This document shows positions 4,804 through 39,212 of a stretch of 46,526 nt of DNA, piece by piece; within the stretch, counting starts at the first letter, position 1, and each line of letters starts with the position of its first letter. Source of the DNA: Bacteroidales bacterium (GTDB taxonomy: Bacteria; Bacteroidota; Bacteroidia; Bacteroidales; F082); assembly GCA_017561025.1 (NCBI GenBank), contig JAFZDU010000046.1, positions 1 to 46,526 on the forward strand, read 5' to 3'. The notes under the pieces are model-generated. The model worked only from the letters and a program-made list of their open reading frames with translations. It was not told the origin of the DNA and did no database searches. Position numbers and translations under genes: made by a program.

Positions 4804-7317
4804 TTAATTCCTAATTATTCTATATACGTTTCCTTCAATTTCAACAAAATATATTCCTGGATTAAAAGCGCTCATATCAACATTTACTGTTGAATGTTGT
4901 CCGTTGACTGTTGACATTTTAATTCCATAAATATTGTAAATGTTAATTTCCTTAACGTCTTCATTAAGTTTTATATACAAGACATCATCGACTGGATTTG
5001 GATATATCTCGAATGTGTTTTTCATCTCTTCTATCGCTTCGCCTTTTATTTCAAATTCGTAAGGTGCTGATGGCAATGACTCTCCGACTTCGCAATGTGT
5101 CACTACTGTGAAATAGTGACTGCCTTCTTCATCGAATCCTATGACGTATGATGTTTCTGTTGTTGTTTCTAATTTATTACCATCTAAATAGATAGAATAT
5201 TCTTGAGCATTGTCGACAGCGTCCCAAGTCATTGTGACTTTGAAGTTATGGTCGAAACCTTCCGCGTCTTGTTCTATTGTGGCGCCGAGTACTGTAGGTG
5301 CGAAACAAGGGTCGTCAACTTCGATGATGGCGCATTCTTCTGGAGTGAATGCTGAGATTTTGTCTCCTTTTATTGTTCTTACTCTGTAGCAGAATTCCAT
5401 TCCTAATTGAATGCATCCGTCGTTGTATGATGTTGATGTTGTCTCTAACAAGAACTCGCCTCTGCGGTATAAGTGATATGCTGTCGCACCATCCACGGCG
5501 CTCCAATTAATCTTGAAGCTTGTCTCCAAAGCGTTAACTTGTAAACTCTCCGGAGCATCGATGTCGGTGTTGACTTTATATATTTTTGCCACTGATGTCT
5601 TGTCGCCGTAGATGGCAACGACTTCAATGATATACAGATTTTCTGTGATGGCGATGCTGTGTGATGTCTCGCTTGTCTTTTCCAACAACAACTCGCCGTT
5701 GACATATAAATGATAACCTGATGGTTCTGCTTGCTGTGGCGCTGTCCATCTGATTGTCATCTCGTCGCCGTTTTGTTCAGCGATGATGTCGCTTACAGGA
5801 TGAGGGTGTGTGGTGTATTCGTAGAGATAATGACTGTTGAAGACTTCCTTGGTGTCGTAGTCTTGTATCCACATCGCCACTTCGAGGTCGCTCATCTGTT
5901 CGACATTTGAGTTGAAGAGGTTGTAAGTATATTCGAAGTTTTTAGTCTGACCTGCTGCTATTGTGAAGGTGTTGCCTTCTGCGCTGTCGAGCATCTTCAT
6001 CATGATATGACGGAACTCTTCTTCACCGTTGCTGCTAGCGTTTTCTGTTGTTATCTTCTCGTTGACAGAGACGAAAAGTCTTGCGTTGCTGAGGTTTACG
6101 TAAGAAGTGACGTCTGCTGTTATCGTGATGACTTTTCCGCTTGTGGTGAACGATCCTCTGATGTCGGCGAAAGCAGGAGCGTTGTATCTTTCGTCTAAAG
6201 TCGCCTGTGTCATCATCGTTGCTGTCTGTCTTCCATCGAGGTAGATGTCAGGCACGCCGAAGACGCCATAGTAGTTTTCTCTTGTCTTGCTGTCGTCGTT
6301 AGCATAAGGGTCGCCCATTCCAGGGAAGTCGACAGGATATTTTGTGTAGGTGTATTTTCCAGGGTTGTTAGCAGTGAAATCTGCCATGTGTTGGTTCACG
6401 TTGACGCAAGGAGCGCATGTTGAACTGGAGAAGTGTTCAATCATAGGTATTCTCTGTGCCTGTCCCAAAGCGATGACTAAATCCTTTTCCATTGTGTTGT
6501 TGCTGCTGTTATCGCTGATGCCATTGACATCGATGATATTGACTTCAACCTTATAAGTTCCAGGGATGAGGAATGTAGGTACCTGGAAAGTGAATTCAGC
6601 TTGATCGAAAGAGTTCAATGAGGTGTTGAATGTCTCTGTTATCTTTTCGAATCCTTCTATTTCGTATGATGCAGTGAAGCTTTCTACTTTGTTGCATCCG
6701 AGGTTTTTCACTGTGAAAGGTATCTCTGTGTTGCCGGCGCCGAGCATATTAGGCACGTCGACGCTAACCATTTTAAGGTCGGTGCTTTCTTGTGCTGTGA
6801 TGACGATGTCGTCGAAATACCAAGCGTCGAAGTCGTACCATTCGCCACTATAGTAAATGCTGAACATCACATTGGATTTTCCCATGTCGGGAGTGACGAT
6901 GTTGATTTCTTCGGTATATTTTCCGGTTGTGCTGTAACCTTTCGACCATCCTTGGTTCCAGGTGTTGCCGTTGTCGGATGATGTGGCGATGTAGATGTAG
7001 TTTGTCGTTGTGGCGAAGTTGTCGAAATACATCTTGAAAGAAACAATCACGCCTGGCACGTTGGTCAAGTCGACAGCTGCTGTCTTCATTCTTGACATTC
7101 CGCTGAATGAAGGCTGGCAGTTTAACTTCAATTCGTTGGCGTTGCCGCCGGCGTTGCTGCTGGCAGATACTGACCAGTTGCTTGTTGTGTTGCCTGCTTC
7201 TTGCCATCCAACAGGGAGTGTGCTGCCGTTGAAACTTTCTTGTAGGATGATGTTGTTCTGCGCGAAAAGCATTGCTGAGAATAACAATGCGATAGTGAAT
7301 GATAATAATTTCTTCAT
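4804..7317 (-). CDS. T9SS-exported Omp28/thioredoxin-domain adhesin-like protein (paralog 1)
   Basis: An 837-residue protein with a signal peptide (1-20). A jelly-roll domain (about 25-175) has the choice-of-anchor-J / cleaved-adhesin signature: SFNGSTLPVGW near the start, ATSSDNGNTWN in the middle and WYFDDIVI at the end. A CARDB-like Ig domain follows (about 180-285), then an Omp28-like thioredoxin domain (about 288-505) with Cys301/Cys304 in SSSTCAPCV and a probable cis-proline at 356 (GVPDIYLDG). Three FN3-like modules (about 510-755) lead to a T9SS type A sorting domain (about 765-837; IYPNPVDDVLYIKL). It would be exported by Sec then T9SS and exposed on or shed from the surface. Omp28 relatives have no established enzyme activity; thiol-disulfide exchange is inferred from the CxxC. 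It is the most downstream of nine paralogs. Confidence 0.85.
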   Translation of the reverse strand: MKKLLSFTIALLFSAMLFAQNNIILQESFNGSTLPVGWQEAGNTTSNWSVSASSNAGGNANELKLNCQPSFSGMSRMKTAAVDLTNVPGVIVSFKMYFDNFATTTNYIYIATSSDNGNTWNQGWSKGYSTTGKYTEEINIVTPDMGKSNVMFSIYYSGEWYDFDAWYFDDIVITAQESTDLKMVSVDVPNMLGAGNTEIPFTVKNLGCNKVESFTASYEIEGFEKITETFNTSLNSFDQAEFTFQVPTFLIPGTYKVEVNIIDVNGISDNSSNNTMEKDLVIALGQAQRIPMIEHFSSSTCAPCVNVNQHMADFTANNPGKYTYTKYPVDFPGMGDPYANDDSKTRENYYGVFGVPDIYLDGRQTATMMTQATLDERYNAPAFADIRGSFTTSGKVITITADVTSYVNLSNARLFVSVNEKITTENASSNGEEEFRHIMMKMLDSAEGNTFTIAAGQTKNFEYTYNLFNSNVEQMSDLEVAMWIQDYDTKEVFNSHYLYEYTTHPHPVSDIIAEQNGDEMTIRWTAPQQAEPSGYHLYVNGELLLEKTSETSHSIAITENLYIIEVVAIYGDKTSVAKIYKVNTDIDAPESLQVNALETSFKINWSAVDGATAYHLYRRGEFLLETTSTSYNDGCIQLGMEFCYRVRTIKGDKISAFTPEECAIIEVDDPCFAPTVLGATIEQDAEGFDHNFKVTMTWDAVDNAQEYSIYLDGNKLETTTETSYVIGFDEEGSHYFTVVTHCEVGESLPSAPYEFEIKGEAIEEMKNTFEIYPNPVDDVLYIKLNEDVKEINIYNIYGIKMSTVNGQHSTVNVDMSAFNPGIYFVEIEGNVYRIIRN
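4889..4916. repeat. Degenerate heptamer repeat (GTTGNNN)x4 inside the CDS
   Basis: Four consecutive 7-mers on the plus strand, GTTGAAT, GTTGTCC, GTTGACT and GTTGACA, lie in the sorting-domain coding region and encode the linker TVNGQHSTVNV. The same heptamer family occurs at 17885-17911, 36769-36796 and, outside genes, 43156-43183. Confidence 0.7.
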
Positions 7318-7334
7318 GTGTTGGATATAAACAA

Positions 7335-7368: not shown

Positions 7369-7390
7369 TATTTACAAACTTTTTATTTTT

Positions 7391-8815
7391 TTATTGTTTG
7401 ATGAATCTCTTTGTGATGTCGCCTTTGTCAGTGCTGATTCTGATGAAGTAGACGCCATTGTTGAAGTTGCTCAAATCGATAGATCCGTTGAAGTTTTGTT
7501 CGCTGTATACCATAACGCCGACAACGTTGTAGATATTAACTTCGTTGATGTTTTCGTTAGTGTCGATGTTGAGGTAGTTGTTAGCAGGGTTAGGATAGAT
7601 CTCGAATCTGTTAGCATATTCTTCTAATGACTCGTCTGTGACGACAACAGTGCAAGGTTCTGATAATTCTGATTCGCCGTTAGCACAGACTGTATATACT
7701 TGATAAGTGAATGTGGTTTCAGCGTCTGAACCTGCGATGTAATAGTTTGATGATGACAATCCGAATTCTTGTCCGTTAACGTAGACGTAGTAAGCTTGAG
7801 CGCCTTCTACAGCGTCCCATGTCAAGGTGACTCTATAAACGAATGAGTAATCAGGAACGTCTTTTTCAATTGTAGCGCCGAGGTTTGTTGGAGCCAAGCA
7901 TGGACCGTCGTTGCCGCCTATCACTACATGGACAGGGTCTGTCATGTCAGATTCGCCGTCTTCGCATGATGATGTGACGTTATAGAATACTGTTGTTGGA
8001 GTGTTGTAGCCTAATTCGAATGATGTTGTGCTTGAATAGCCTCTCCAGTTACCGTTTTCATATACTGTGTATGATGAAGCGTTGTCGAAAGCATCCCATG
8101 TGAGAGTTACTTTATATTTGTAAGCATAACCTGGAACGTCTTCTTCAACAGTAGCTTGAAGGTTTGTTGGAGCCATACATGGGTCTATTTTAACCATCAA
8201 GTAAGGTGATTTTGGTGATTCGCCTTCTGCACAGATTGAAGCAACAGCGATGTAAAGTGTTGTTGGGAAAGCGATACCGATTACGTATTCGTTTTCTGTT
8301 GTCTTAACGAACTCATCGTAGTTGAGGTAGATTTGATATTTTTCTGCGCTTGCGACTTCGTCCCATGTGATAGTGACTTTATATTTATCGCCGAAACCTG
8401 GAACGTCTTCTTCAACAGTAGCTTGGAGGTTTGATGGAGTGAGGCATGGTGTTGCGCCTTCTTCAATAACGACAGTGCATTTTTCTGATTGCTCTGAAGA
8501 ACTGCCGTCGCTGCAATGTGTCAATACTGCGAATTGGAAAGTAGATTCTGTGTTAGCACCTGCGATGTAATAGAGACCGTCGCTGTCACCTAACCACATA
8601 CCTTCTGGATAGTTGGCTGAATAAAAATAAATTGAATAGAAATCTGCGCCTTCAACAGCATCCCAGCTTAAAGTGACTTTGTATTTGTAGCCATAACCAG
8701 GAACGTCTTGTTCAACTTGGGATCTTAAGTTTGTTGGAGCATCGCATGCTAAAACTTCAGCATGAATAGCAAATGAGAGTAGTAATGTGAATAATAAATG
8801 TAAAGCTTTTTTCAT
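7391..8815 (-). CDS. T9SS-exported FN3-array protein
   Basis: A 474-residue protein with a signal peptide (about 1-23, ending VLACD), four tandem FN3-like modules of about 90 residues (roughly 24-112, 117-208, 212-300 and 304-392), and a T9SS type A sorting domain (about 400-474; FEIYPNPANNYLNIDTN). Each module starts with a C-APTNL-A-E-DVPGY-type motif and has VTLTWDAVEGA in the first strands. There is no thioredoxin or jelly-roll domain, so it is a pure surface scaffold. The modules closely resemble the single FN3 module in the thioredoxin-adhesin paralogs at 4804, 17788, 28561 and 36672, so it may have shared modules with them. It has its own promoter (8852-8859). Confidence 0.82.
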   Translation of the reverse strand: MKKALHLLFTLLLSFAIHAEVLACDAPTNLRSQVEQDVPGYGYKYKVTLSWDAVEGADFYSIYFYSANYPEGMWLGDSDGLYYIAGANTESTFQFAVLTHCSDGSSSEQSEKCTVVIEEGATPCLTPSNLQATVEEDVPGFGDKYKVTITWDEVASAEKYQIYLNYDEFVKTTENEYVIGIAFPTTLYIAVASICAEGESPKSPYLMVKIDPCMAPTNLQATVEEDVPGYAYKYKVTLTWDAFDNASSYTVYENGNWRGYSSTTSFELGYNTPTTVFYNVTSSCEDGESDMTDPVHVVIGGNDGPCLAPTNLGATIEKDVPDYSFVYRVTLTWDAVEGAQAYYVYVNGQEFGLSSSNYYIAGSDAETTFTYQVYTVCANGESELSEPCTVVVTDESLEEYANRFEIYPNPANNYLNIDTNENINEVNIYNVVGVMVYSEQNFNGSIDLSNFNNGVYFIRISTDKGDITKRFIKQ

Positions 8816-13421: not shown

Positions 13422-15701
13422 TTATTTCTTAATGATCTTCTTGACAACGTTTCCTTCTTCTGAATTGATCGTGATGAGGTATAGTCCGCTGTTGTAATGT
13501 TTCATGTCAACTTTAATGCTGTTGCCTTCAACATCGAATCTGTCGACCATAACACCTATATTATTATATATTGTAATGTCGTTGATGTTGTTGCCGCTGA
13601 TTGTGACATAATCGTTGACTGGGTTTGGCATTACCATGAATGATGATTCAAGTTCGTGGATGTTTTCTCCATTATATGTTATGCATGATGGTAATGTCAA
13701 TGCTGATTCGTAACTGCCGTAGACAGCAGAAACTTGATAGCAGTACATATCGTTGACTGTTAATGTATTGTCGACAAATTCTGCTTCGTCTGCTGTAGCA
13801 ATCAAGATGCCGTTGCGGTAAATGTTGTATTTGTCAGCGCCTTCTATGCCTGTCCATGACATTTCAACAACGTGTCCGTTTAAAGTCGCTGAGAAAGCTT
13901 GTGGTGTCGCGAAGTCATTAGAGAGAAGTTTCACTGCCTTCACAGAACTCTTTTCGCCATATAATGCTTCAACTTCAATGGTGTAGAAGTCGAGGTTGTT
14001 TTCTATTGTGTAGTTGAGATCTGTTATGTTGCTTGCTACTATGTCGTTGTTTACGTATACGTTATATCCTGTTGGGTTTGATGATTCTGCAGCAGTCCAT
14101 CTGATGGCGAGCTTGCCAGTGTTGGTGATGCTGAGGTTTTGTACAGGATAAGGATGCTCGGTGTATTCGTAGAGGAAACGGCTGTTGAAGATTTCTTTTG
14201 TGCTAGGATCTTGTACCCATACTGCCACTTCGAGGTCGCTCATCTCTTCCATATTGGTTTCTGACATATCGCATGAATATTCGAAGCGTTGGTATTCGCC
14301 AGCTTTGATAGTTGTTGCGTTGCCTTCTGAACCGCCGAACATCTTCATGATGACATGATGGAATTCTGTCTCGCCGTTAGTTCCGACATTTTCTGTAGTG
14401 GTCTTTTCATTGACGGTGATGTAAGTCTTGACGTTGTTGAGATCTACGTATGACATGACGTCTGCTGTCAAGGTGATGACGTTGCCTTCAACATTGAAAG
14501 CGCCTCTGACATCTGCGAAAGCAGGCACTGCATATCTCTGTGACAGTTTGCTATTGGTGACAGGCTGAGGTGTGCCGTTTGTCACTTGGAGTTCTGAGTC
14601 GAGGAATATTTGTGGCACTGACGATACGTTATAGAACAGACATCTGTCGTAGCTTTCGTTGATGAAGTAAGGGTCGCCGCTGCCTGGCCAGTTGACTACA
14701 TATTTTGTATAGGTGAACTTGCCTGGGTTGTTGTTGCATAAGTTGTTCATCAATGAGTTCAACAACACACAAGGAGCGCAGGTAGAACTGGAGAAGTGTT
14801 CTATCATAGGGATTCTCTGTGTTGTGGCGATGGCGACGCTGAAGTCGTTGGTGATGCTGTTGTTATCAAGATTTGAGTCTTCGTCCCATCCGTTGACTTT
14901 TGTGATGTTCATGTTGATGTCGTATGATCCTGGGAGCAATGTCTCTATTTTTTCGAAAGAGAGTGTGTTTTCTTCGAATGAAGTCATATAGACAGAGAAT
15001 GTCTCTGTAACTGCTTCTTGATTGCCGATCTGGTATGTCGCTTCGAACGACTGGATGGCGGTGCTTCCCATATTTTGTACGGTGAAGTTGACATTAAGCG
15101 GACCTGATCCTATTCTCTCATCGATGTTGATGCTGCTGAGTTGTATGTCGAGGTCTTCTTGTATCTTGACTTCGAAGTTGTCGAAGTACCAGTTGTAGAA
15201 GTTTGATGATGAACCATCGAAGTAGATGCAGAAGAGCACGCCTTCGTAACCCATGTCAGGTGTTGTTATCTTTTTCTCGATGCTATATTGACCTGACTGG
15301 TTGTATGACTGTGACCATACTGTATTCCATGTGTAACCGTTTGTTGTTGATGTGGCGATGCCTATGGTGCTCACCGCTCCGCTGTAGTTTTCGAAATAGT
15401 GGTCCATCTTGACAACGAGGTTCTGGATGCCTGTCAAGTCGACTGGCGCTGATATGATGCGGTTGCATCCCGAGAACTGAGGACTCCAGTTGAGTCTTAA
15501 TTCGTTGGCGTCGCCTCCTGCATAGTTGGTAGCACTGATGCTCCAGTTGCCTGATGGCTCGCCGTCAGGTCCCATGGTGGTCCAGCCTTCTGGCATAGTG
15601 GCAGCGTCGAACGATTCGTTGATGACGTGAGTGAATGGGTCTTGTGCAAAGATTGCTACTGAGAACAATAATGCGATTGCTAATAATGATATCTTTTTCA
15701 T
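13422..15701 (-). CDS. T9SS-exported Omp28/thioredoxin-domain adhesin-like protein (paralog 2)
   Basis: 759 residues with a signal peptide ending FAQ at 20. The jelly roll is at about 25-180 (FDAATMPEGW to WYFDNFEV) and the CARDB-like domain at about 185-290. The Omp28/thioredoxin domain has Cys308/Cys311 in SSSTCAPCV and SVPQIFLDS as the cis-proline loop. Two FN3-like modules (about 515-670) and a sorting domain (about 690-759) follow. In the CTD, YNNIGVMVDRFDVEGNSI differs from the other paralogs, so it belongs to no obvious recent conversion tract. Its ATG overlaps the TGA of the upstream paralog by four bases (ATGA), which indicates translational coupling and co-expression of two paralogs from one mRNA. 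Confidence 0.85.
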   Translation of the reverse strand: MKKISLLAIALLFSVAIFAQDPFTHVINESFDAATMPEGWTTMGPDGEPSGNWSISATNYAGGDANELRLNWSPQFSGCNRIISAPVDLTGIQNLVVKMDHYFENYSGAVSTIGIATSTTNGYTWNTVWSQSYNQSGQYSIEKKITTPDMGYEGVLFCIYFDGSSSNFYNWYFDNFEVKIQEDLDIQLSSINIDERIGSGPLNVNFTVQNMGSTAIQSFEATYQIGNQEAVTETFSVYMTSFEENTLSFEKIETLLPGSYDINMNITKVNGWDEDSNLDNNSITNDFSVAIATTQRIPMIEHFSSSTCAPCVLLNSLMNNLCNNNPGKFTYTKYVVNWPGSGDPYFINESYDRCLFYNVSSVPQIFLDSELQVTNGTPQPVTNSKLSQRYAVPAFADVRGAFNVEGNVITLTADVMSYVDLNNVKTYITVNEKTTTENVGTNGETEFHHVIMKMFGGSEGNATTIKAGEYQRFEYSCDMSETNMEEMSDLEVAVWVQDPSTKEIFNSRFLYEYTEHPYPVQNLSITNTGKLAIRWTAAESSNPTGYNVYVNNDIVASNITDLNYTIENNLDFYTIEVEALYGEKSSVKAVKLLSNDFATPQAFSATLNGHVVEMSWTGIEGADKYNIYRNGILIATADEAEFVDNTLTVNDMYCYQVSAVYGSYESALTLPSCITYNGENIHELESSFMVMPNPVNDYVTISGNNINDITIYNNIGVMVDRFDVEGNSIKVDMKHYNSGLYLITINSEEGNVVKKIIKK

Positions 15702-27621: not shown

Positions 27622-27726
27622 GTCCTGAAAGGACGACAGTCCCCAGGCAGGCGGTGAAGTGCGAAGCACGGAACCCCTGCAATATAAGATTATACCATAA
27701 TCAGAGTGCCGAAGGTACGACAGAAA
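27622..27726 (+). repeat. REP-like palindromic repeat, unit D
   Basis: Hairpin GTCCT-GAA-AGGAC, GACAGTCCCCAGGCAGG, inner hairpin GTGC-GAA-GCAC, GGAACCCCTGC, spacer, GTGCC-GAA-GGTAC, GACAGAAA. It is a solitary copy without a transposase. Confidence 0.75.
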
Positions 27727-27831: not shown

Positions 27832-28443
27832 CTAGTTTCTCTTTCCCTCAAACTCCTCTTTCACATATTCATAGAAATGAGCGTATGCAGTGCACATATA
27901 TGGTCCTATCCATAGGAATCCTATGCAGAGAGTGATGATTCCGAGGAATATCCATCCTATGAATGAAAGTCCCAAGCAGAACAGCTCCCATTTGTGTCCT
28001 TTCATCATCTCCATACTACGTTCTATGGCAGCATTGTATTTGAGTTCTGGATTGTCTCTCATGATATAATAAACCATGCTATATGAGAGAGCTTTGATTA
28101 TACCTGGCACTATTAACAACAATGACCATAATAAGACATAAATTCCCATCAAAAGACCGGTGAGTACTACGCCTCCGTAGTTTTTGAAACCATCGAACAT
28201 GCTTTCAATATTTATTTTTTCTCCTGTGCGAATAAATCCAAGAAAGGCTACTTCATAACCATATTGAATCGGTAATGCGACTAAAAGTGTCAATAGTGCA
28301 CTGACTATGTCTGATTTCACGCCAATGCCATTTATTACTAATGCGATAAGAAAATAACTAAATGAGAACAATACTACATGTTTCCAGTTGCCGGTGAGTT
28401 GAGCCCAAGCTGCATCTCTGAAGTGTTTTGCATTCATTTTCAT
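27832..28443 (-). CDS. DUF975 family membrane protein
   Basis: 203 residues. It opens with AKHFRDAAWAQLTGNWKHVVLFSF, the conserved N-terminal amphipathic segment of DUF975 proteins, followed by about five transmembrane segments and the conserved MRDNPELKYNAAIERSMEMMKGHKWELFCLGLSFI-like region before the last helices (about 130-190). The role is unknown; DUF975 proteins are inner-membrane and often near envelope genes. The start could also be the second Met (28437). The leader contains a hairpin (28453-28475). It is a single gene bounded by terminators on both sides, unrelated to the secreted paralogs around it. Confidence 0.82.
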   Translation of the reverse strand: MKMNAKHFRDAAWAQLTGNWKHVVLFSFSYFLIALVINGIGVKSDIVSALLTLLVALPIQYGYEVAFLGFIRTGEKINIESMFDGFKNYGGVVLTGLLMGIYVLLWSLLLIVPGIIKALSYSMVYYIMRDNPELKYNAAIERSMEMMKGHKWELFCLGLSFIGWIFLGIITLCIGFLWIGPYMCTAYAHFYEYVKEEFEGKRN

Positions 28444-28560: not shown

Positions 28561-30840
28561 TTATAATTTAACAACTTTACGTGTAGCTGTTCCGTTTTCT
28601 GTGTTAACTTGAACGAAATAGATACCAGTGTTGTAGTCGTTCATGTTGATTTCAACTTCGTTGCCTGCAACTTCGATTCTTTCAACCAATACGCCAACGC
28701 TGTTGTAAACGCTGATTTCGTTGATGCTGTTGCCTTGGATCATGACAACATCCTTAACTGGGTTAGGATAGATTACGAAGCTGTTGTTGAGTTCTTCGAT
28801 AGAAGTAACTTCGAAATTGAATGGTTCAGATTGTTCTGATTCTCCATTTTCACATACGGAAGCTACTGTGAAATAGTGTGAACCCATTTCATTGAAGCCT
28901 GTGATGCAAGCTAAATCTGTTGTTGTGGTCAATATCTCTCCGTCGAGATAAACGACATATTCATTAGCATTATCAGCAGCGTCCCATGTCAAAGTAACTT
29001 TATATGTATGGTCGAAATCATAAGCATCTACGTCTACTGTAGCGTTGAGGTTTGTTGGTGCTTCACATGGTGTTTCATCATTGCCTGCTGCTGATGATGA
29101 GATTGTAGGAACTGATGATTTGTCGCCGTATAATGCGATAACTTCAGCGATGTTCAATCCTTCAGCGTTAGCTATTGTGTATGACATGTTTGTTGTGTTT
29201 TCTTCTTTTACTTCACCGTTGATTTTTACCATATAACCTGTTGGTGTGCCAGCTTCTGGAGCTTCCCATGTAACAACGAGGTCGTTGCCGTCAGCTGTCA
29301 TTGTGTGGTTTTGTACTGGATAAGCGTGTTCTGTGTATTCGTATGCGAAGTGGCTGTTGTACATTTCTTTTGTTGAGAAGTCTTGTAACCACAATGCAAC
29401 TTCGAGGTCGTTCATGTCTTCAACGTGTGTTGATGCCATATTGAATGAGAACTCCATGCGTTTGTATTCGCCAGCGTTGATAGCGATTTGGTTGCCGTTA
29501 GCGCCGTCTAACATCTTCATCATGACGTGGTGGAATGATGTCTCACCGTTGCTGCCTACGTTGCCTGTTGTTTCTTTTTCGTTAACGACTACGAATGCTC
29601 TTACGTTGTCCATTTGTACGTATGACATGAAGTCGGCGATGATATTGATAGTGCTGCCTTCGATAGTGAAAGAACCTCTTACGTCAGCGAATGCTGCTTT
29701 GTTGTAATATTGATCTAATGTTGTTTGGTTGCCGCTATTGACATTTTGACCGTCGAAGAACAACATTGGAACAGCGTTAACGCCGTAGTAGTTTCTTCTT
29801 GTGCCACCTTCTTCTGTGTAGTAAGCGTCACCAGAACCAGGCCAGTTCATTTGATATTTTGCGTAAGTGAATTTGCCAGGGTTAGCTGCTGTGAGCTGGT
29901 TCATTGCGTAGTTGACTGATACACATGGTCCGCATGTTGAGCTTGAGAAGTGTTCAATCATAACTGTTCTTTGTGTCTCGCCTAAAGCAACTAATACTTC
30001 TTTTTCTAATTCGTTGTTTGCTGCGTCATCGTCTTCAACGTCGTTTACCTTATTGATAGAGATAGGTAAGTTATATGCACCTGGGTTGTAGAATACTTTT
30101 TCTGAGAATGTGAATTGTTTTGAAGCCATTGGTTCGAGGTTGGCTGTGAATGTTTCTGTTACGTCAGAATCACCTTCGATTCCTGAGTTGAATGTTGCTT
30201 CAAATGTTTCAATAGCTGTCTTGCCGATGTTTTGTACTGTGAAAGTGATATCTGTGTCGCCAGCGCCTTTCATGCCTGCTACGTCGATGCTTGCCAACTT
30301 GAGGTCGAGGTTTTCTTGTGAGAAGACTTCGATGTCATCGAAATACCAGTTGTTGATGTTGTAAGCATCACCGTTGAAGTAAAGACAGAAATATACATTG
30401 TTTTTACCCATATCAGGTGTGGTGATGATTTCGTTTACTGTATATTGGCCTGTTGCTGAATAGCTCTTTTCCCATGCTGTGTTCCATGTTGTGCCGTCAG
30501 ATGATGTAGCAACACCGATAGTGTTGGAACCTGAGTAGTTGTCGAGGTAGTGTTTGAATGAAACAACGAGCTCTTGAGCATTTGTCAAGTCGATAGCTGG
30601 AGATACAACGCGTGAGATGCCGTTGAACTGTGGACTCCAGTATAATGTCAATTCGTTGGCTTCGCCGCCAGCTTGGTTGCTTTGTGCGATTGACCAGTTG
30701 CCTGTTCCAAGTCCAGAGATTGTCCATCCTGATGGCATTGTTTCACCATCGAAGTGTTGGCTGATGTAACCGGCTCTGTTTTGAGCGAACATTGTTACTG
30801 AGAGCAGTAATGCTAAAGCAAATAGTAAAGTTTTTTTCAT
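28561..30840 (-). CDS. T9SS-exported Omp28/thioredoxin-domain adhesin-like protein (paralog 6, CGPC)
   Basis: 759 residues. Signal peptide to 20 (TMFAQ); jelly roll about 25-175 (FDGETMPSGW to WYFDDIEVF); CARDB-like about 178-288; thioredoxin-like domain with Cys303/Cys306 (SSSTCGPCV) and AVPMLFFDG; FN3-like modules about 510-590 and 600-680; sorting domain about 685-759 (FVIYPNPVKDVVMIQG, ending RKVVKL). The second FN3 module (DAADNANEYVVYLDGE) belongs to the same subgroup as 17788-20094 and 36672-39212, while its signal peptide and leader match 31288-33330. It is therefore a mosaic. The leader of about 90 nt before the nearest promoter-like sequence is conserved with that of paralog 7. Confidence 0.85.
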   Translation of the reverse strand: MKKTLLFALALLLSVTMFAQNRAGYISQHFDGETMPSGWTISGLGTGNWSIAQSNQAGGEANELTLYWSPQFNGISRVVSPAIDLTNAQELVVSFKHYLDNYSGSNTIGVATSSDGTTWNTAWEKSYSATGQYTVNEIITTPDMGKNNVYFCLYFNGDAYNINNWYFDDIEVFSQENLDLKLASIDVAGMKGAGDTDITFTVQNIGKTAIETFEATFNSGIEGDSDVTETFTANLEPMASKQFTFSEKVFYNPGAYNLPISINKVNDVEDDDAANNELEKEVLVALGETQRTVMIEHFSSSTCGPCVSVNYAMNQLTAANPGKFTYAKYQMNWPGSGDAYYTEEGGTRRNYYGVNAVPMLFFDGQNVNSGNQTTLDQYYNKAAFADVRGSFTIEGSTINIIADFMSYVQMDNVRAFVVVNEKETTGNVGSNGETSFHHVMMKMLDGANGNQIAINAGEYKRMEFSFNMASTHVEDMNDLEVALWLQDFSTKEMYNSHFAYEYTEHAYPVQNHTMTADGNDLVVTWEAPEAGTPTGYMVKINGEVKEENTTNMSYTIANAEGLNIAEVIALYGDKSSVPTISSSAAGNDETPCEAPTNLNATVDVDAYDFDHTYKVTLTWDAADNANEYVVYLDGEILTTTTDLACITGFNEMGSHYFTVASVCENGESEQSEPFNFEVTSIEELNNSFVIYPNPVKDVVMIQGNSINEISVYNSVGVLVERIEVAGNEVEINMNDYNTGIYFVQVNTENGTATRKVVKL

Positions 30841-31287: not shown

Positions 31288-33330
31288 TTATTTTATAACT
31301 ACCTTCTTAATAACGTTTCCGTTCTCAGTCATAACATTGAAGAAATAAATTCCTGTGTTATAGTCTGAAATATTGATTTCTGCTTCATTAGCGTTGACTT
31401 CAATCTCTTCAACCATCATTCCTAAACAGTTGTAAACCTTAACTGAATTGATGTTGTCGTTTCCAGAAATCTTGACGAAGTCTTTTGCTGGGTTAGGGTA
31501 GATGCTGATTTCAGCAGTTGCTTCGTTTTCTGCTATGTTAACATTGTTGCTGTTGAAACATTTTACAACGCTAACAGATGTTTTGCCGACTCCGTATAAT
31601 GCTATAACTTCAACCAATACTATAGGTTTGTTTGTATAGTAGCTTATTGATGTTTCTTGAGTGTTGCTTTCTAACATTACGCCATCAACATATACTTTGT
31701 ATCCTGTTGGTGTTCCTTGTTCTGGAGCGCTCCATGAGAATGTTCTAGCACCTGGACCTGTTGTTGTTTCAACGAGATTTTGAACTGGGTAGTAGTGGTC
31801 GGTGTATTCATAAGCGAATTTGCTGTTGAATACTTGTTTGTTGCTTAGGTCTTGTAACCATAATGCTACTTCGAGGTCGTTCATGTCTTCTACGTGTGTC
31901 GATGACATGTCGAATGAGAATTCTAATCTTTGGTAGTTGCCTGGTTCGATGCTTATTGTGTTTCCGTCAGCGCTGTCTAACAACTTCATCATGACATGGT
32001 TGAATGAAGTTTCACCGTTGCTGCCGACATTGCCTGTTGTTTCTTTTTCGTTGACAGAAACGAAAGCTGCTACATTTTCTAATTTTATGTATGACATGAA
32101 GTCGGCTGTTATGTTGATAGTGTTGCCTTCAACCTTGAAAGCGCCGCTGATGTTAGCGTAAGCTGGATTGTTGTTTTCCATTTCTAACAAGCTTTGAGCT
32201 AAGCTGGCGTTGATTTGTTCACCATTGAATATTACTGTAGGAACAGCATCACAAGAGTAGTAAACTCTTCTTGTTTCACCATCTTGTGTGTAGTATGCGT
32301 CACCATTGCCAGGCCAGTTCATTTGATATTTTGTGTAGGTGAATTTGCCAGGATTGTTTGTTGTGATTTGGTTCATTGTGTAGTTTACAGAGACACACGG
32401 TCCGCATGTTGAACTTGTGAAATGTTCAATCATAGTAATTCTTTGGGTGCTGCCCCATGCTGCGAAGACGTCTTTGCTCATGGCGTTGTTGCCCGCGTTG
32501 TCGTCAACTTCACCATTAACCTTTTCTATTTCCACTTCGATGTTGTAATATGTATCTTGTGGTAATGCTTGGATTAAAGCATCGCTTATATAGCTGAATG
32601 CGATTTGTTTTGTTGCTAATGATTCTATTGTTTGGTTGATAGTTGCACTAACTGGTTCTTCCCAACCTGTAACGTCAACTGTAACGTCAAAGTTGTTAAC
32701 TGTTGTCTTGCCAGTATTTTGTACAGTGAATACTATCTCTGTTTCTCCTGTAGGGATGATTTCTGGAATGTCGATGCTGAGGAGTTTAAGGTCGAGGTCT
32801 TCTTGTAAGAAGATTTCAAAGTCGTCGAAGCTCCATCCGTTAACGTTGTATGAGTTGCCTTCGTAGAACAAGCAGAATAAAACATTGTTTTTACCCATGT
32901 CAGGTGTTGAGATGCTTTTGTTAATAGTTGCTCCGCCTGACATGTCGTATGTTTGTTCCCAACCTGTATTCCATGTGTTTCCGCCGTCTGATGATGTAGC
33001 GATACCGATTTTACTTGCACCGCTATAGTTGTCGAGGTAATGTTTGAAAGAAACTATAACGCCATTAACACCTGTTAGGTCAACAGGTGTCATAACGATA
33101 CGTGATATGCCGTCGAAGCTTGGGTTGTAGTATAAAAACAATTCATTTGGAGTGCCGCCAGCATAGTTTGATGCAGATACATACCAGCTGCTGGTACCCA
33201 TGCCTTGAATAGACCATCCTTCAGGGAGGTCATCGCTATCGAATGATTCTTGAATGAAAACAGTTCTGGTTTGTGCGAACATTGTCATTGAAAGCAATAA
33301 TGCTAGTGCAAATAGTAAAGTTTTTTTCAT
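31288..33330 (-). CDS. T9SS-exported Omp28/thioredoxin-domain adhesin-like protein (paralog 7, CGPC)
   Basis: 680 residues from ATG 33330; MKKTLLFALALLLS is the signal peptide and the upstream 14 codons of open frame are leader. Jelly roll about 25-178 with GWSFDDFEIF, where Ser replaces the usual Tyr of WYFDD (also in paralog 8). CARDB-like about 180-290; thioredoxin-like domain with Cys309/Cys312 in HFTSSTCGPCV and AVPTVIFNG; one FN3-like module (about 515-600); sorting domain about 610-680. The final ~190 bp are almost identical in DNA to those of 34538-36577, which marks a very recent duplication or conversion tract. Confidence 0.85.
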   Translation of the reverse strand: MKKTLLFALALLLSMTMFAQTRTVFIQESFDSDDLPEGWSIQGMGTSSWYVSASNYAGGTPNELFLYYNPSFDGISRIVMTPVDLTGVNGVIVSFKHYLDNYSGASKIGIATSSDGGNTWNTGWEQTYDMSGGATINKSISTPDMGKNNVLFCLFYEGNSYNVNGWSFDDFEIFLQEDLDLKLLSIDIPEIIPTGETEIVFTVQNTGKTTVNNFDVTVDVTGWEEPVSATINQTIESLATKQIAFSYISDALIQALPQDTYYNIEVEIEKVNGEVDDNAGNNAMSKDVFAAWGSTQRITMIEHFTSSTCGPCVSVNYTMNQITTNNPGKFTYTKYQMNWPGNGDAYYTQDGETRRVYYSCDAVPTVIFNGEQINASLAQSLLEMENNNPAYANISGAFKVEGNTINITADFMSYIKLENVAAFVSVNEKETTGNVGSNGETSFNHVMMKLLDSADGNTISIEPGNYQRLEFSFDMSSTHVEDMNDLEVALWLQDLSNKQVFNSKFAYEYTDHYYPVQNLVETTTGPGARTFSWSAPEQGTPTGYKVYVDGVMLESNTQETSISYYTNKPIVLVEVIALYGVGKTSVSVVKCFNSNNVNIAENEATAEISIYPNPAKDFVKISGNDNINSVKVYNCLGMMVEEIEVNANEAEINISDYNTGIYFFNVMTENGNVIKKVVIK

Positions 33331-33847: not shown

Positions 33848-34082
33848 GTCCTGAAAGGACGTCAGTTCCCAGGCAGGCGGTGAAGTGCGAAGCACGGAAC
33901 CCCTGAAATAAAGATTATACCATAATCAGAGTGCCGAAGGTACGACAGAAAATCAGTCATCAAATATTTATTTTGGTTTTTCTGTCGTCCTTTCAGGACT
34001 TTGATTCTACTTGGTTCTCGTTTGCAGGGATTCCGCACTACGTGCTCCATCACCTGCCTGGGAATTGTCGCACCTTCGGCGC
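33848..34082. mobile_element. Internally deleted derivative of the RAYT element (unit E)
   Basis: Left end 33848-33952 and right end 33981-34082 match the complete element at 20442-21120, but about 443 bp between them, almost exactly the transposase frame, are missing. The junction reads CAGTCATCAAA followed by TATTTATTTTGG. This is a non-autonomous, MITE-like form. The left core also lost several bases (CCCTGAAATAAAG). Confidence 0.8.
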
Positions 34083-34306: not shown

Positions 34307-34411
34307 GTCCTGAAAGGACGTCAGTTCCCAGGCAGGCGGTGAAGTGCGAAGCACGGAACCCCTGCAATATAATATTATACCATAATCAGAGTGCCGAAGG
34401 TACGACAGAAA
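34307..34411 (+). repeat. REP-like palindromic repeat, unit F
   Basis: Same order as units A and D: GTCCT-GAA-AGGAC, GTCAGTTCCCAGGCAGG, GTGC-GAA-GCAC, GGAACCCCTGC, GTGCC-GAA-GGTAC, GACAGAAA. It is the counterpart of unit B in the duplicated segment, but with the first hairpin of unit A type. Confidence 0.75.
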
Positions 34412-34527: not shown

Positions 34528-34558
34528 CAAAAAGTTCTTATCTGATAAGAACTTTTTG
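34528..34558 (-). terminator. Intrinsic terminator overlapping the end of the paralog 8 coding sequence
   Basis: A perfect 14-bp palindrome, CAAAAAGTTCTTAT / ATAAGAACTTTTTG with a three-base loop, spans the last codons and the stop codon of paralog 8 and ends in T5 on the minus strand. Confidence 0.7.
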
Positions 34559-36577
34559 AATACGGTTTCCGTTCTCAGTCATAACATTGAAGAAATAAAT
34601 TCCTGTGTTATAGTCTGATGTGTTGATTTCTGCTTCATTAGCGTTGACTTCAATCTCTTCAACCATCATTCCTAAACAGTTGTAAACCTTAACTGAATTG
34701 ATGCGGTCGTCTCCAGAAATCTTGACGAAGTCATTAGCTGGGTTAGGGTAGATGCTGATGTTGTTTTCTGTTATTTCGCTTACGTTGTTGGCTTTTGTGA
34801 CAAGTACAGCAGAACCTACAGAAGTGCCGTTTTCATATACTGCAACTACTTCAACGATGTGTTTGTTGTCGTCTAATAAATAATCGATGGTTTCACTGCT
34901 TCCGCCTGAATATGATGTTTCAGTATAGTTTTCTTCAATCAATTCACCATCGAGGTAGATATTATATCCTGTAGGATTAGCTTTTTCTGGTTTGTTCCAA
35001 TTAATACTAAATGTTACATAATCACCATCAATTCCGGCTGATAAATCTTCAACAGCGTATAAGTGTTCTGTGTATTCCATAGCGAACTTGCTGTTATAGA
35101 CTTCTTTTGTTGTTTGGTTTTGTAACCACATAGCTACTTCGAGGTCGTTCATGTCTTCGACATGTGTTGATGACATATCGAATGTGTATTCAACGTGTTT
35201 GATTTCGCCAGCATTGATGCTCATAGCTTCTCCTTGTGCTGATGTTAACATCTTGAGCATGATATGGTGGAACTCTGTCTCGCCGTTGCTTCCTGTGTTG
35301 CCTGTTGTTGTCTTTTCGTTGACAGCGACGTATGCCTTGGCGTTGAAGACATCGCTATATGCCATGAAGTCGGCTGCCAAAGTGATTGTGTTGCCTTCAA
35401 CTTGGAAAGCGCCTTGGATGTTGACGAATGATTTCTCGTTTAATCTTCTGTCTAATGCCAATTGTGTTACAGGAGCTTCGCTAGTGCCGCCGTCCAAGAA
35501 TATTGTAGGAACGCTGTTGACGTTGTAGTATGTTCTTCTTGTTCCGCATTCTGCTGTGTAGTAAGGGTCGCCAGTGCCAGGGCCGTTCATTGGATATTTT
35601 GTGTAAGTGTATTTGCCTGGGTTAGCTGCTGTGAGTTCTTCCATGGCAGTGTTGACGAAGACGCATGGATAACATGTTGAACTTGAGAAGTGCTCGATCA
35701 TAGGGATTCTTTCAGCGATGCCGTAACCAACAATGACGTCTTTTGTTGCAGCGTTGTTGTTCATGTCTTGGTCGTCGCCGTTGTTTACCTTATTAATATT
35801 GAGGTTGATGGTGTATTCGCCTGGGAATAATGTCACTTTTGTGTCGAATGTGAATTGTTCTGACTCGTATGATGCGAGGTTTGTCTCGAATGTCTGTGTC
35901 ACTGTCTCGCCGCCTTCAACTTGATAGCTTGCTTCGAAAGATTCGATGGCGTTGGTGCCTAAGTTCTTGGCAGTGAATTTCACTTCCGACTGACCTACGC
36001 CTAAGTTAGCGCTGATGTCGAAGCTCTCGACGTTGATGTCGTTGCCTTCTTGAGAATAGATTAAGAAATCATCGAAACTCCAGTAGTTGATGTCGTATGA
36101 ATTGCCTTCGAAATAGAGAGCAATCATGACGTTATCTTTGCCGATGTCGCTTGTTGTGATGAGTTCGTTTTGTACGTATTGAGCTGTTACTGAGAATGTC
36201 TTTGACCATCCGCTGTTCCATGTGACACCGCCGTCAGATGATGTCGCGATGCCTATTGTTGATTCGTTTGAGTAGTTTTCGTAATAATGTTTGAAGGAGA
36301 TGACGAAGCTTGGGATGTTGCTTAAGTCGAAAGAACCCATTGAGAGATATGATGTTCCTTCAAATTGTGGTTCCCAGAAGAACTCCATTTCCCATGGCAT
36401 GCCGCCAGCTCTGTTGGTGTTTTGTACCGTCCAGCTGTTGTTGCCGCCGCCATAGACTGCCCATCCTGATGGCATTCCTGAAGTGTTGAACGACTCACTT
36501 AAGATGATAGCTCTGCTTTGAGCGAACATTGCTGTTGAAAGCAATAATGCAATTGTAAGTAGTAAAGTTTTTTTCAT
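34538..36577 (-). CDS. T9SS-exported Omp28/thioredoxin-domain adhesin-like protein (paralog 8, CYPC)
   Basis: 679 residues. Signal peptide to 20 (AMFAQ); jelly roll about 25-178 with YWSFDDFLIY; CARDB-like about 182-285; thioredoxin-like domain with Cys302/Cys305 in SSSTCYPCV, a bulky Tyr between the cysteines, and SVPTIFLDG; one FN3-like module with an extra serine/glycine loop (SYSGGSSETID, about 560-575); sorting domain about 610-679 ending QKVLIR. The CTD DNA is nearly identical to that of 31288-33330 up to the last codons, where a palindromic terminator replaces the paralog's ending. The gap to the upstream gene is only 94 bp and carries a hairpin; no -7 element is obvious, so read-through from 36672-39212 is possible. 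Confidence 0.85.
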   Translation of the reverse strand: MKKTLLLTIALLLSTAMFAQSRAIILSESFNTSGMPSGWAVYGGGNNSWTVQNTNRAGGMPWEMEFFWEPQFEGTSYLSMGSFDLSNIPSFVISFKHYYENYSNESTIGIATSSDGGVTWNSGWSKTFSVTAQYVQNELITTSDIGKDNVMIALYFEGNSYDINYWSFDDFLIYSQEGNDINVESFDISANLGVGQSEVKFTAKNLGTNAIESFEASYQVEGGETVTQTFETNLASYESEQFTFDTKVTLFPGEYTINLNINKVNNGDDQDMNNNAATKDVIVGYGIAERIPMIEHFSSSTCYPCVFVNTAMEELTAANPGKYTYTKYPMNGPGTGDPYYTAECGTRRTYYNVNSVPTIFLDGGTSEAPVTQLALDRRLNEKSFVNIQGAFQVEGNTITLAADFMAYSDVFNAKAYVAVNEKTTTGNTGSNGETEFHHIMLKMLTSAQGEAMSINAGEIKHVEYTFDMSSTHVEDMNDLEVAMWLQNQTTKEVYNSKFAMEYTEHLYAVEDLSAGIDGDYVTFSINWNKPEKANPTGYNIYLDGELIEENYTETSYSGGSSETIDYLLDDNKHIVEVVAVYENGTSVGSAVLVTKANNVSEITENNISIYPNPANDFVKISGDDRINSVKVYNCLGMMVEEIEVNANEAEINTSDYNTGIYFFNVMTENGNRIQKVLIR

Positions 36578-36652: not shown

Positions 36653-36671
36653 TCTTTAAACTTTAAACTAT

Positions 36672-39212
36672 TTATTCTACAACTATTTTTTTAATTAAAT
36701 TTCCTTTTTCTGTCTTAATCTCTACGAAGTAAACTCCTGAGTTATATCCATTCATGTTGATGATAGCTGTTGTCTGTTGTCCATTGACTGTTGTCATCTT
36801 CACACCAATGATATTGTATATATTAATTTCAGTGATGTTTTCTTTTGCATTGATGTATAAAATGTCGTTGACTGGGTTTGGATATAATTGGAAATTGTTT
36901 TCTAATTCTGAAATTGACTCGCCTTTAATTTCAAATTCAAATGCTTCTGACTGTTCTGACTCGCCGTTTTCACATACTGAAGCAACTGTGAAATAGTGTG
37001 TTCCTTCTTCGTTGAATCCTTTGATGTATGATGTCTCTGCTGTCGTATCCAATTTTTCGCCGTCGAGATAAACAACATATTCGTTTGCGTTGCTTGCTGC
37101 TCCCCAAGTCATTGTGACTTTAAATGTATATTCGAATCCTTCAGCGTCTTGTTCTATGGTGGCGTTGAGGTTGGCAGGTGCATCGCAAGGTTTTTCTCCT
37201 ACTTGAGCGCATTCTTCTGCAGAGAATCCTGAGTAGTTGCCGTCGCCGCAATATGTTCTTACGTTGTAGCAATATTGTGTGCCTAATTCGATTTCTGTGT
37301 CAACATATTCTGCTGATGCGACTGTTGTCAATAATGTTCCGTTGCGATATAACTGATATTCTTCTGCTCCGTCAACGGCGTCCCATTTTACTGTGATCTT
37401 CATATTGTCTTCATCGCCTGTCACTGTGATGTTTTGTGGAGTGTCGCATGATGATACGAAATTGGTGATGCCGATAGATCTTGCGTTGTCATAAACAGCG
37501 ACTACTTCAGCAGAGAAAATTTCGTCAGCACCATTGATTGTATATGACAATGCTGTTGTGTTGCTTGATACTAACTCGCCGTTGACATAAATCATATATG
37601 CTGATGGTGTGCCTGTAGCAGGCGCTCCCCATGTCATTGTATTTCCATTGAGTTCAAGATTTTGTGCTGGATATGGGTGTTCTGCGTATTCGTTCAAATA
37701 ATGACTGTTGTGGATTTCCTTTGAGTCGTATGTCTGAACCCATACTGCCACTTCCAAGTCGTCGATTTCTTCCATATGTGTTTCTGTCATATCGAAAGAG
37801 AAAGCGAAACGTTGATATTCGCCAGCATTGAAGGTTGTCTCGATGCCGTTGATGTCGCCTAACATCTTCATGAAGATATGGTGGAACTCAGTCATTCCGT
37901 TGCTTCCTGTGTTGCCTGTTGTTGTCTTTTCATTGATAGACAAGAAAACTCTTACGTTAGGCATGTCGATATAAGAAATGATGTCGGCAGTCACGTTGAT
38001 TACGTTGCCTTCAACATCGAAAGCGCCTGCGATGTCGACGTATGATGTGGCGTCTAATCTGTCGTCTAACTCTGATTGTGTCACGGCGCCTGACTTGACT
38101 TGTCCGTCGAGGGCGATGTTAGGCACGGTGTAGACTCCGTAATAGTCGCTTCTTACGATGCAGTCAGGTGTTGCGTAAGGGTCGCCGATGCCAGGCCAGT
38201 TGACAGGGAATTTGGTGTAAGTGTATTCGCCTGGGTTGTTGCTTGTAAGTTCCATCATGGCGTTGTCGACGCCTACGCAAGGTTGGCATGTTGAACTTGA
38301 GAAGTGCTCGATCATAGGTGTTCTTTGAACAGTTCTCATATAAGTGTTGAAGTCTTTGGTCATGCTGTTGTTGCTTGGTTCTGCGTCGCTCGCGCCGTTC
38401 ACGCTGACGATATCGACTTTAACAGAATAAGCGCCTGCAACGAGACCTGCTGGTGTCTGGAATGTGAATTGCTTGTTGTTTGATGATGCGAGGTTGGTCT
38501 CGAAAGTCTCAGTAACAGTCTCGAATCCTTCAATCTCGTAACTCGCTTCGAATGATGTCACCGTCTCTTGTCCTGTGTTGTTCACAGTGAAGCTGATGTC
38601 GACCATTCCTGCAGGAACGATGCTGTTGACATTGACTGCAGACATCTGGAGGTCGGCGCCTCCTTCGCTGCCGCCTTGTGTGAAGATGCAGATGTCGTCG
38701 AAATACCATTTGTTGAAGTTATATGTGTTGCCTTCATAAAACATACAAATCAAAACGTTGTTCTTACCCATGTCGGAAGTGCTGAAAGTCTCGTTGATGT
38801 TGTATTGTCCTGTTGATGAGGCGTTGGAATATGTCTTCGACCATCCTGTGTTCCATGTCGCTCCGTTGTCGGATGATGTAGCGAAACCGATGGTGCTGCT
38901 CAACTGGTCGTTGTTAAGATAATGTTTGAAAGAGAGTCCGAGTTCGCTTACGTTGGTTAAGTCGGCAGTCGCCATGACAAGATGAATGCCGCTGGTGACG
39001 ATAGGGATACTCTTGAAATATAATTCATTAGGGTCGCCGCCAGCATTGCTGCTTGTCTTGACTTCAAAGTTGCTAGCGCCATCGCCTGTGAAGTACCAGC
39101 CGCTTGGCATCGATGATGAATTGAATGACTCATTGACGATGAATGCTCTTTCTTGAGCAAAAATCGTTACTGATAGCAATAATGCTACAATAAAAAATAA
39201 ATGTTTTTTCAT
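36672..39212 (-). CDS. T9SS-exported Omp28/thioredoxin-domain adhesin-like protein (paralog 9, CQPC)
   Basis: 846 residues from ATG 39212. The frame is open from 39242, but the -7 element at 39240-39247 excludes that start. Signal peptide to 20 (TIFAQ); jelly roll about 25-178 (FNSSSMPSGW to WYFDDICIF); a GGSEGG linker; CARDB-like about 187-290; thioredoxin-like domain with Cys309/Cys312 in SSSTCQPCV and TVPNIALDG; three FN3-like modules (about 520-600, 603-685 and 690-775); sorting domain about 780-846. The longest member. Its middle FN3 module (YQLYRNGTLL, YCYNVRTYCGDG) resembles that of paralog 1, and its last module plus CTD matches paralog 4. It is the first gene of the array and carries the clearest promoter. 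Confidence 0.86.
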   Translation of the reverse strand: MKKHLFFIVALLLSVTIFAQERAFIVNESFNSSSMPSGWYFTGDGASNFEVKTSSNAGGDPNELYFKSIPIVTSGIHLVMATADLTNVSELGLSFKHYLNNDQLSSTIGFATSSDNGATWNTGWSKTYSNASSTGQYNINETFSTSDMGKNNVLICMFYEGNTYNFNKWYFDDICIFTQGGSEGGADLQMSAVNVNSIVPAGMVDISFTVNNTGQETVTSFEASYEIEGFETVTETFETNLASSNNKQFTFQTPAGLVAGAYSVKVDIVSVNGASDAEPSNNSMTKDFNTYMRTVQRTPMIEHFSSSTCQPCVGVDNAMMELTSNNPGEYTYTKFPVNWPGIGDPYATPDCIVRSDYYGVYTVPNIALDGQVKSGAVTQSELDDRLDATSYVDIAGAFDVEGNVINVTADIISYIDMPNVRVFLSINEKTTTGNTGSNGMTEFHHIFMKMLGDINGIETTFNAGEYQRFAFSFDMTETHMEEIDDLEVAVWVQTYDSKEIHNSHYLNEYAEHPYPAQNLELNGNTMTWGAPATGTPSAYMIYVNGELVSSNTTALSYTINGADEIFSAEVVAVYDNARSIGITNFVSSCDTPQNITVTGDEDNMKITVKWDAVDGAEEYQLYRNGTLLTTVASAEYVDTEIELGTQYCYNVRTYCGDGNYSGFSAEECAQVGEKPCDAPANLNATIEQDAEGFEYTFKVTMTWGAASNANEYVVYLDGEKLDTTAETSYIKGFNEEGTHYFTVASVCENGESEQSEAFEFEIKGESISELENNFQLYPNPVNDILYINAKENITEINIYNIIGVKMTTVNGQQTTAIINMNGYNSGVYFVEIKTEKGNLIKKIVVE
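36769..36796. repeat. Degenerate heptamer repeat inside the paralog 9 CDS
   Basis: GTTGTCT, GTTGTCC, ATTGACT, GTTGTCA, four 7-mers in phase, at the same place in the sorting domain as in paralogs 1 and 4. They encode MTTVNGQQTTA. Confidence 0.7.

Follow-up and report, generated by a model that had tools for sequence, protein, structure and literature searches.

Contig JAFZDU010000046.1 of a Bacteroidales bacterium (assembly GCA_017561025.1; contig C42 in our numbering) raises the question why nine related genes for predicted surface proteins, each with a CxxC domain of thioredoxin type and a sorting domain of the type IX secretion system (T9SS), stand in a row on one strand. The window, i.e., the whole stretch of 46,526 nt that was analysed, is this contig, and the source genome comprises 2.79 Mb in 126 contigs (completeness 84.39). 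Translation bore out the initial annotation of 4804-39212 as nine same-strand genes: all are minus-strand paralogs in tandem, numbered here from O1 (at the 39212 end) down to O9 (at 4804), and in an alignment the other members are 47-57% identical to the O4 protein (28561-30840). A search with an alignment of the domain (A2) found ten family copies in the source genome, nine in the array and one on contig C75. Within one lineage, known chiefly from the ruminant hindgut, a gene for a T9SS-type CxxC protein has expanded in tandem at a conserved genomic neighbourhood.

The copy number had been called unusual, and it does lie far above that of most relatives. Family matches were obtained in 95 of 99 genomes of the genus, with 0 to 14 copies, in 45 of 60 relatives and in 46 of 296 genomes of a phylum sample. 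Copies were counted by sample site in 50 genomes out of the 53 distinct ones among 72 loci (L073, L074 and L128 being left out). The six genomes whose record titles name ruminant colon or cecum hold 11, 14, 12, 11, 10 and 12 copies, while the eight from ruminant reticulum, omasum, abomasum or rumen, again by record titles, hold 1, 3, 2, 2, 6, 2, 2 and 3. The 19 genomes of the RUG and Tb.RUG series, which we take to be rumen genomes, have 2 to 4 copies and the five from red deer (site not stated) 2 each; foregut, rumen series and red deer together make 32 genomes with 1-6 copies. Four genomes of the SIG series (host not identified) carry 13, 10, 5 and 4 copies, and four other unlabelled samples 2, 2, 2 and 5.

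A general expansion of T9SS cargo was rejected as the cause of the high copy number: a first look at the 50 genomes, the only level at which they can be compared, gave 107-128 candidate T9SS tails for each of the six from colon/cecum and 61-225 for each of the remaining 44, scored matches being capped at 90 per genome. The same counts bear on the idea that the array serves surface redox maintenance or the oxidative folding of other T9SS cargo in a Dsb-like manner. A thioredoxin-type CxxC would suit such a service, and with 61-225 first-look tail candidates in the 50 genomes there would be much to fold; however, the colon/cecum genomes have no excess of such candidates and the genomes richest in candidates have 2-5 copies of the family, and we regard the idea as improbable. 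A second set of proteins, those matching the Omp28 family (PF11551), is also raised, with 11-14 matches in the six colon/cecum genomes, 15 in SIG104, 13 in SIG107 and 1-6 in the remaining 42 genomes. In the source genome nine of ten such matches lie outside the window. Eight proteins of this second class were read (loci L200, L201 on contig C76 of the source genome, L202, L203 and L204); they carry the CxxC domain near the N-terminus, and seven have a T9SS-like tail, the eighth being lipoprotein-like and without one.

Of 51 genomes, 41 entered an rpoB tree; eight gave no rpoB match and two with partial matches were left out. On this tree, the high-copy genomes, namely five of the six from colon/cecum, SIG104, SIG107 and the source genome, form one clade with a support of 0.978, and their sister group consists of SIG105 (5 copies) and SIG106 (4 copies). 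The sixth colon/cecum genome (G454, dairy-cattle colon, 12 copies) is among the eight lacking an rpoB match; its copies group with the same orthologs. Since the high-copy genomes are one clade, the association with the hindgut amounts to one event, and the tree rules out independent gains in several hindgut species. A naive Fisher test (6/6 vs. 0/8, p = 0.0003) was set aside because the species are related.

The source genome, like SIG107 (G009), carries the complete array on one contig between a cysteate synthase gene and two genes for C1-type peptidases, and one flank is seen in the remaining expanded genomes. SIG104 (G011) shows both flanks; four of its copies stand past the cysteate synthase, in the opposite direction, and another stands past the peptidases. 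Across six array loci the identity of the cysteate synthase is 83-95%, and across five that of the peptidases is 84-99.5%; up to ten copies occur on a single contig (G023). Fourteen low-copy loci (L064-L067, L069, L070, L072-L074, L077, L083-L085 and L127), from foregut, rumen, red deer or unlabelled samples, hold one copy in the same neighbourhood, on the other side of the cysteate synthase, in the order carboxylase-like gene, family copy, cysteate synthase, two peptidases. In SIG105 (L061) the cysteate synthase is followed by a single copy and two peptidases, and in SIG106 (L114) by three copies and one peptidase. We read this series as an array that probably grew from one through three to about nine copies. 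The initial annotation had held that a fixed single copy in relatives, with the others pseudogenised, would speak against diversification; relatives do have the single copy at the corresponding neighbourhood, but the nine genes here are intact and no pseudogenes.

The age of the paralogs was judged from trees of copies in chosen stretches of eight high-copy genomes and the source genome. Among 86 extracted copies, 84 covered the thioredoxin domain well enough to be used, and 71 did so for the N-terminal part. The nearest tree neighbour came from the copy's own genome in 0 of 84 cases for the thioredoxin domain (shuffle mean 8.6) and in 0 of 71 for the N-terminal part (7.4). The paralogs are older than the compared species of the expanded clade and have been kept as separate orthologs. 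The order of the ortholog groups in G022, G023, G029 and G035 is that of the source genome as far as it is covered, is similar in G009, G016 and G030, and is broken in the rearranged array of G011; group labels are uncertain in 34 of 83 copies, many of them in G009, G016 and G030. For seven ortholog pairs between the source genome and G029, from the closest species, the ratio of nonsynonymous to synonymous substitution (dN/dS) in the thioredoxin domain is 0.06, 0.14, 0.06, 0.09, 0.02, 0.06 and 0.04. These heads are under purifying selection; they are old and well kept, and probably not interchangeable.

The other end of the proteins has a different history. For the last 78 residues, 53 of 84 copies have their nearest neighbour in their own genome (shuffle mean 8.6), specifically 9/9 in G009, 9/9 in G016, 10/10 in G011, 10/10 in G030, 7/11 in G023, 4/10 in G035, 3/7 in G022, 1/10 in the source genome and 0/8 in G029. 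Sorting domains have been swapped or homogenised within several genomes, and the FN3 region has been exchanged in part. Between the source genome and G029, the sorting domain of O1 is 46% identical and its thioredoxin domain 92%, and the FN3 region is less conserved than the thioredoxin domain in six of the seven pairs. Of the 45 paralog pairs in G016 (dairy-cattle colon), 27 are more than 85% identical in the nucleotide sequence of the sorting domain, a value that no pair surpasses in the thioredoxin domain; the fraction of identical fourfold sites is 0.82 in the former and 0.47 in the latter. One G016 tail, searched against G016 itself, matched nine places on the array contig at 85-100%, and long matches elsewhere reached up to 84%. 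In the source genome, G029, G035 and G022, the mean likeness of the tails does not exceed that of the heads. Gene conversion would be the simplest reading of the likeness among sorting domains.

It is against these results that the proposal of the initial annotation, a redundant and variable set of surface antigens diversifying by recombination, has to be weighed. The high copy number, the exchanged sorting domains, the less conserved FN3 region, the short repeats and Y1 transposase in the array (see below) and the one rearranged array could all be cited for it. Nevertheless, no head has its closest relative in its own genome (0/84), gene order is mostly kept, and dN/dS values of 0.02-0.14 mark the heads as old orthologs under constraint. 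Moreover, the T9SS sorting domain, the part that is exchanged, is cut off before surface display. At the between-species level the proposal is largely contradicted, and we give it very little credence.

The make-up described for the nine proteins is borne out, with differing strength from module to module. The initial annotation assigned one order of modules to all of them, of which the CxxC domain and the T9SS tail hold in 9/9; of the other modules, CARDB passes its cut-off in 3/9 (listed in 9/9 at E ≤ 1), the N-terminal choice-of-anchor J module (NCBIfam NF038128) in 1/9 (4/9 listed at E ≤ 0.1) and fn3 in 2/9 (5/9 listed at E ≤ 1), while Omp28 does so in none. Inspection of the alignment by eye gives between one and three FN3-like modules per protein. 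T9SS-type export, as claimed, agrees with the hidden Markov model (HMM) searches that the annotation had suggested: the sorting domain lies above the curated cut-off in 9/9 proteins in Pfam and in 9/9 in NCBIfam. Together with a signal-peptide-like N-terminus in all nine, judged by eye, this is the make-up of T9SS type A cargo (signal peptide plus Por_Secre_tail over cut-off). The motif had been given as SSSTCxxC throughout; CxxC is present in 9/9, preceded by SSST in eight and by TSST in the protein at 31288-33330. The cis-proline was likewise found in the alignment of all nine.

Is the CxxC domain a thioredoxin? An alignment of 79 domains (A5) was made from the nine of the window and 70 chosen out of 115 relatives, and another (A4) from the nine and 62 out of 118. 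Both cysteines and a proline at the cis-Pro place are aligned in 79/79 domains, with a CxxC spacing in 78 and CxxxC in one. The 84 copies of the trees have CxxC in 81 and CxxxC in two (the C75 copy of the source genome and G011_L150_2208), and one copy ends before the motif at the boundary of the fetched stretch. Against the Protein Data Bank, the 79-domain profile matched best with thioredoxin 1fo5 (whole-sequence E-value 0.0094, single-domain E-value 0.19), and a pairwise profile alignment to a fragment of the 1fo5 chain gave 88.8% probability with the CxxC and Val-Pro in register. At E ≤ 0.1 the 79 domains matched Omp28 (28), Thioredoxin_2 (20), Thioredoxin_3 (16), Glutaredoxin (13) and DSBA (7) in Pfam, the best Omp28 match being 8.7e-12. 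Homology of the array domain to Omp28 is thus seen by way of close relatives. Directly, Pfam Omp28 was listed at E ≤ 1 for 0/9 full array proteins, the single six-frame match in the window scored 24.1 bits (cut-off 34.9) and the NCBIfam Omp28 lipoprotein model 11.9 bits (cut-off 150) in one array protein. The heads described earlier as thioredoxin-type are so by sequence, and a thioredoxin fold is likely. PG2173, the Porphyromonas gingivalis lipoprotein of the Omp28 family, shares a thioredoxin-like domain bearing CxxC with the array proteins, from which it differs in that their domain stands mid-protein in a multi-part T9SS protein, PG2173 being called an Omp28 lipoprotein in the accessible part of PMC9722745.

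The dipeptide inside CxxC agrees within ortholog groups at 0.44, vs. a shuffled mean of 0.17 and a maximum of 0.29. Group O8 has AP in 9/9 and group O7 AN, AS, GS or SS in 9/9 (three of these with an uncertain group label). Because the dipeptide is group-specific, a specialisation of the heads in ligand or redox properties is possible.

The same domain could be read more simply. As plain adhesins, the proteins would bind glycans, mucus or feed particles through their jelly-roll-like, CARDB-like and FN3-like modules, the CxxC would be a structural disulfide, and the expansion would widen the range of ligands with no redox chemistry. The modules outside the CxxC domain do make up most of each protein's length, a Cleaved_Adhesin T9SS protein is encoded within the array, and the C75 paralog has CxxxC; O2, O5 and O7 have only three cysteines ahead of the tail, and therefore a single bridge is possible there. 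Weak N-terminal similarity recalls the cleaved adhesin/choice-of-anchor J proteins (gingipains, HagA), from which the array proteins differ by lacking a protease domain. With CxxC and cis-Pro in thioredoxin register and a group-specific dipeptide, an active site is a better match than a simple bridge, and we consider the adhesin explanation rather unlikely, if worth keeping in view.

The reading that we prefer, tentatively and with a probability of roughly 40%, is that the array proteins capture disulfide-rich luminal proteins at the cell surface and attack their disulfides, feeding thiol peptidases. Each protein would pass Sec and then the T9SS, lose its C-terminal domain and be anchored on the surface, where its beta-sandwich modules might hold a luminal protein. 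The exposed CxxC would then reduce the held protein or form a mixed disulfide with it, and the loosened polypeptide could become a substrate of exported thiol peptidases, for example the two whose genes adjoin the array. Host-secreted disulfide-rich proteins are present in the hindgut, where the nine heads may be of use as a range of ligand or redox specificities. We infer the surface anchoring, the redox chemistry, the link to the peptidases and the ligands, among them the disulfide-rich host or plant proteins that the initial annotation had proposed.

One of two main precedents comes from Paraprevotella, in which a T9SS-dependent Omp28-related protein recruits trypsin, whose autolysis it is believed to promote, according to the accessible part of PMC9477747. 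Given this trypsin recruitment, the remark in the initial annotation that Omp28-related proteins have no assigned activity is outdated. The trypsin-recruiting protein, P. clara 00502, resembles the array proteins in its Omp28-related label, T9SS dependence, surface location, Ig-like modules and origin in the large intestine; it differs in having a partner protein, 00509, and the portion of the text available to us makes no mention of thioredoxin (PMC9477747). In the open-access literature, searches for Omp28-related, Omp28 family or Omp28 domain returned only this paper, and none was found that joins type IX secretion, thioredoxin and tandem duplication, subscription papers being mostly outside the search.

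Several observations weigh against the capture-and-reduction reading. As described in the accessible part of PMC9477747, and compared by that description only, the trypsin-recruiting protein consists of WD40 and five Ig-like domains, which is another architecture. Horse faeces, also of hindgut origin, yielded four genomes with only 5, 5, 2 and 3 copies, and horse hindgut genomes therefore lack the expansion. The hindgut link is that of a single clade, one event, and one colon/cecum genome is unplaced for lack of rpoB. Many copies of other lineages showed no such peptidases in their surroundings (five of these loci were read), and this linkage was accordingly rejected as a universal feature. 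Taken alone, the nine window proteins fall below every Omp28 and thioredoxin Pfam cut-off, and the CxxC could be structural, the C75 paralog having CxxxC.

A surface thioredoxin that is the second main precedent, HBP35 of P. gingivalis, is reportedly secreted through the Por (T9SS) system. In the accessible text of PMC2907840 it is a 40-kDa hemin-binding protein of the cell surface with a thioredoxin motif, whose active-site cysteines are required for thioredoxin activity, and a conserved C-terminal domain; it differs, again by description only, in its size, its hemin binding and in being apparently a single gene. By analogy, the array could serve heme or iron acquisition, yet no TonB receptor or hemophore was found among the window genes scanned, and the genes alongside encode peptidases, cysteate synthase and an oligopeptide symporter, so that we hold such a role to be very unlikely. 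An HBP35-like protein of Muribaculaceae with thioredoxin and Ig-like parts is likewise a surface thioredoxin of gut Bacteroidales with predicted T9SS export; it differs, as described in the accessible part of PMC13404670, in being one gene family linked to high-fat diet, with a WCxxC motif.

Carried further, surface capture and reduction would become a hindgut-specific system of reduction and proteolysis, in which each head handles another class of host disulfide-rich protein (pancreatic enzymes, mucins, antibodies) and opens it to exported thiol peptidases, and by enlarging the set from one copy to about nine a whole lineage adapted to the ruminant gut downstream of the pancreas; this extended version seems to us a long shot. 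If capture and reduction hold, surface thiol-disulfide chemistry would be tied to a large-intestinal way of life, a single active site could be compared directly in nine natural forms, and the precedent of the trypsin-recruiting Omp28-related protein would be widened from one gene to an array in hindgut bacteria of herbivores. Fixed heads joined to swapped or homogenised sorting domains are also a natural experiment on the evolution of T9SS signals.

The features of the window are collected in Table 1. As a correction to the initial annotation, the run of nine members is broken by six other genes at 7391-8815, 8944-13365, 20548-21003, 21627-22979, 23134-24807 and 27832-28443. These include an FN3-repeat T9SS protein, a Cleaved_Adhesin/LRR_5 T9SS protein, a Y1 (IS200-type) transposase, a LuxR-type domain protein, another T9SS cargo and a DUF975 protein. 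The protein at 7391-8815 has a full-length homolog, 64-88% identical, in five array loci of other genomes. The gene at 8944-13365 may be an insertion in the source lineage, because the flanking members are only ~1.6 kb apart in two sister arrays. The 3' end of O7 and the start of O8 overlap by 4 nt. C1 peptidase models were the only ones matched by the two flanking peptidases. Close to the array and peptidases an oligopeptide:H+ symporter is encoded at 44402-46138; as a homology query it had no listed match in the fetched stretches of relatives, which was not a full look at those genomes.

Table 1. Coordinates of the array members, neighbouring genes and short repeats (ORF, open reading frame; REP, repetitive extragenic palindromic).
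Feature	Position	Strand	Description
O1	36672..39212	-	T9SS-type thioredoxin/Omp28-like, 846 aa, SSSTCQPC, three FN3-like modules
O2	34538..36577	-	Same family as O1, 679 aa, SSSTCYPC
O3	31288..33330	-	Same family as O1, 680 aa, TSSTCGPC; raw ORF start 33372 (GTG), 33330 with signal peptide likelier
O4	28561..30840	-	Same family as O1, 759 aa, SSSTCGPC; choice_anch_J over cut-off
O5	25329..27347	-	Same family as O1, 672 aa, SSSTCGPC; raw ORF start 27527, 27347 with signal peptide likelier
O6	17788..20094	-	Same family as O1, 768 aa, SSSTCAPC; raw ORF start 20142
O7	15698..17695	-	Same family as O1, 665 aa, SSSTCANC (dipeptide without Pro)
O8	13422..15701	-	Same family as O1, 759 aa, SSSTCAPC
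O9	4804..7317	-	Same family as O1, 837 aa, SSSTCAPC, three FN3-like modules
FN3-like-repeat protein	7391..8815	-	Signal-peptide-like start, T9SS sorting domain, without CxxC domain
1473-aa T9SS protein	8944-13365		Within array; Cleaved_Adhesin (254 bits), LRR_5
C1-type cysteine peptidase	2731..3945	-	Peptidase_C1_2, 65 bits; signal-peptide-like start; conserved neighbour
Second C1-type cysteine peptidase	1472..2701	-	Peptidase_C1_2, 61 bits; signal-peptide-like start; conserved neighbour
Cysteate synthase	39534..40829	+	TIGR03844, 498 bits (cut-off 324.9); conserved at the array's opposite flank
REP-like repeat copies	20518-20544, 21420-21446, 25136-25162, 27698-27724, 33923-33949, 34383-34409

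Concerning short repeats, a 27-nt REP-like sequence occurs in six copies in the array at up to 3 mismatches, where none is expected, near the Y1 transposase of IS200 type (20548-21003). Its 20-nt core, with up to 1 mismatch allowed, is found at 18 places of the genome, of which the window holds six, and also in the array loci L143 and L144 of a sister genome; it is possible that the repeat acts as a recombination substrate. A GACAACA heptamer repeat is coding and lies within the sorting domains of O6 (17878-17918), O1 (near 36769) and O9 (near 4889), and it recurs at many short places across the source genome. The search for inverted repeats gave no clear invertible promoter among the 25 of 73 pairs listed, and turned up the Y1 transposase, which has repeats on its flanks, as well as dispersed short repeats. 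Finally, a site reading TATCTTTGC or TAACTTTGC, with an expectation of 0.07 per 200 nt, is absent within 200 nt before O2, O3, O4, O7 and O8. It begins 34-35 nt before O1, O5, O6 and O9 and 44 nt before the gene at 7391-8815, and it resembles the Bacteroidetes promoter element.

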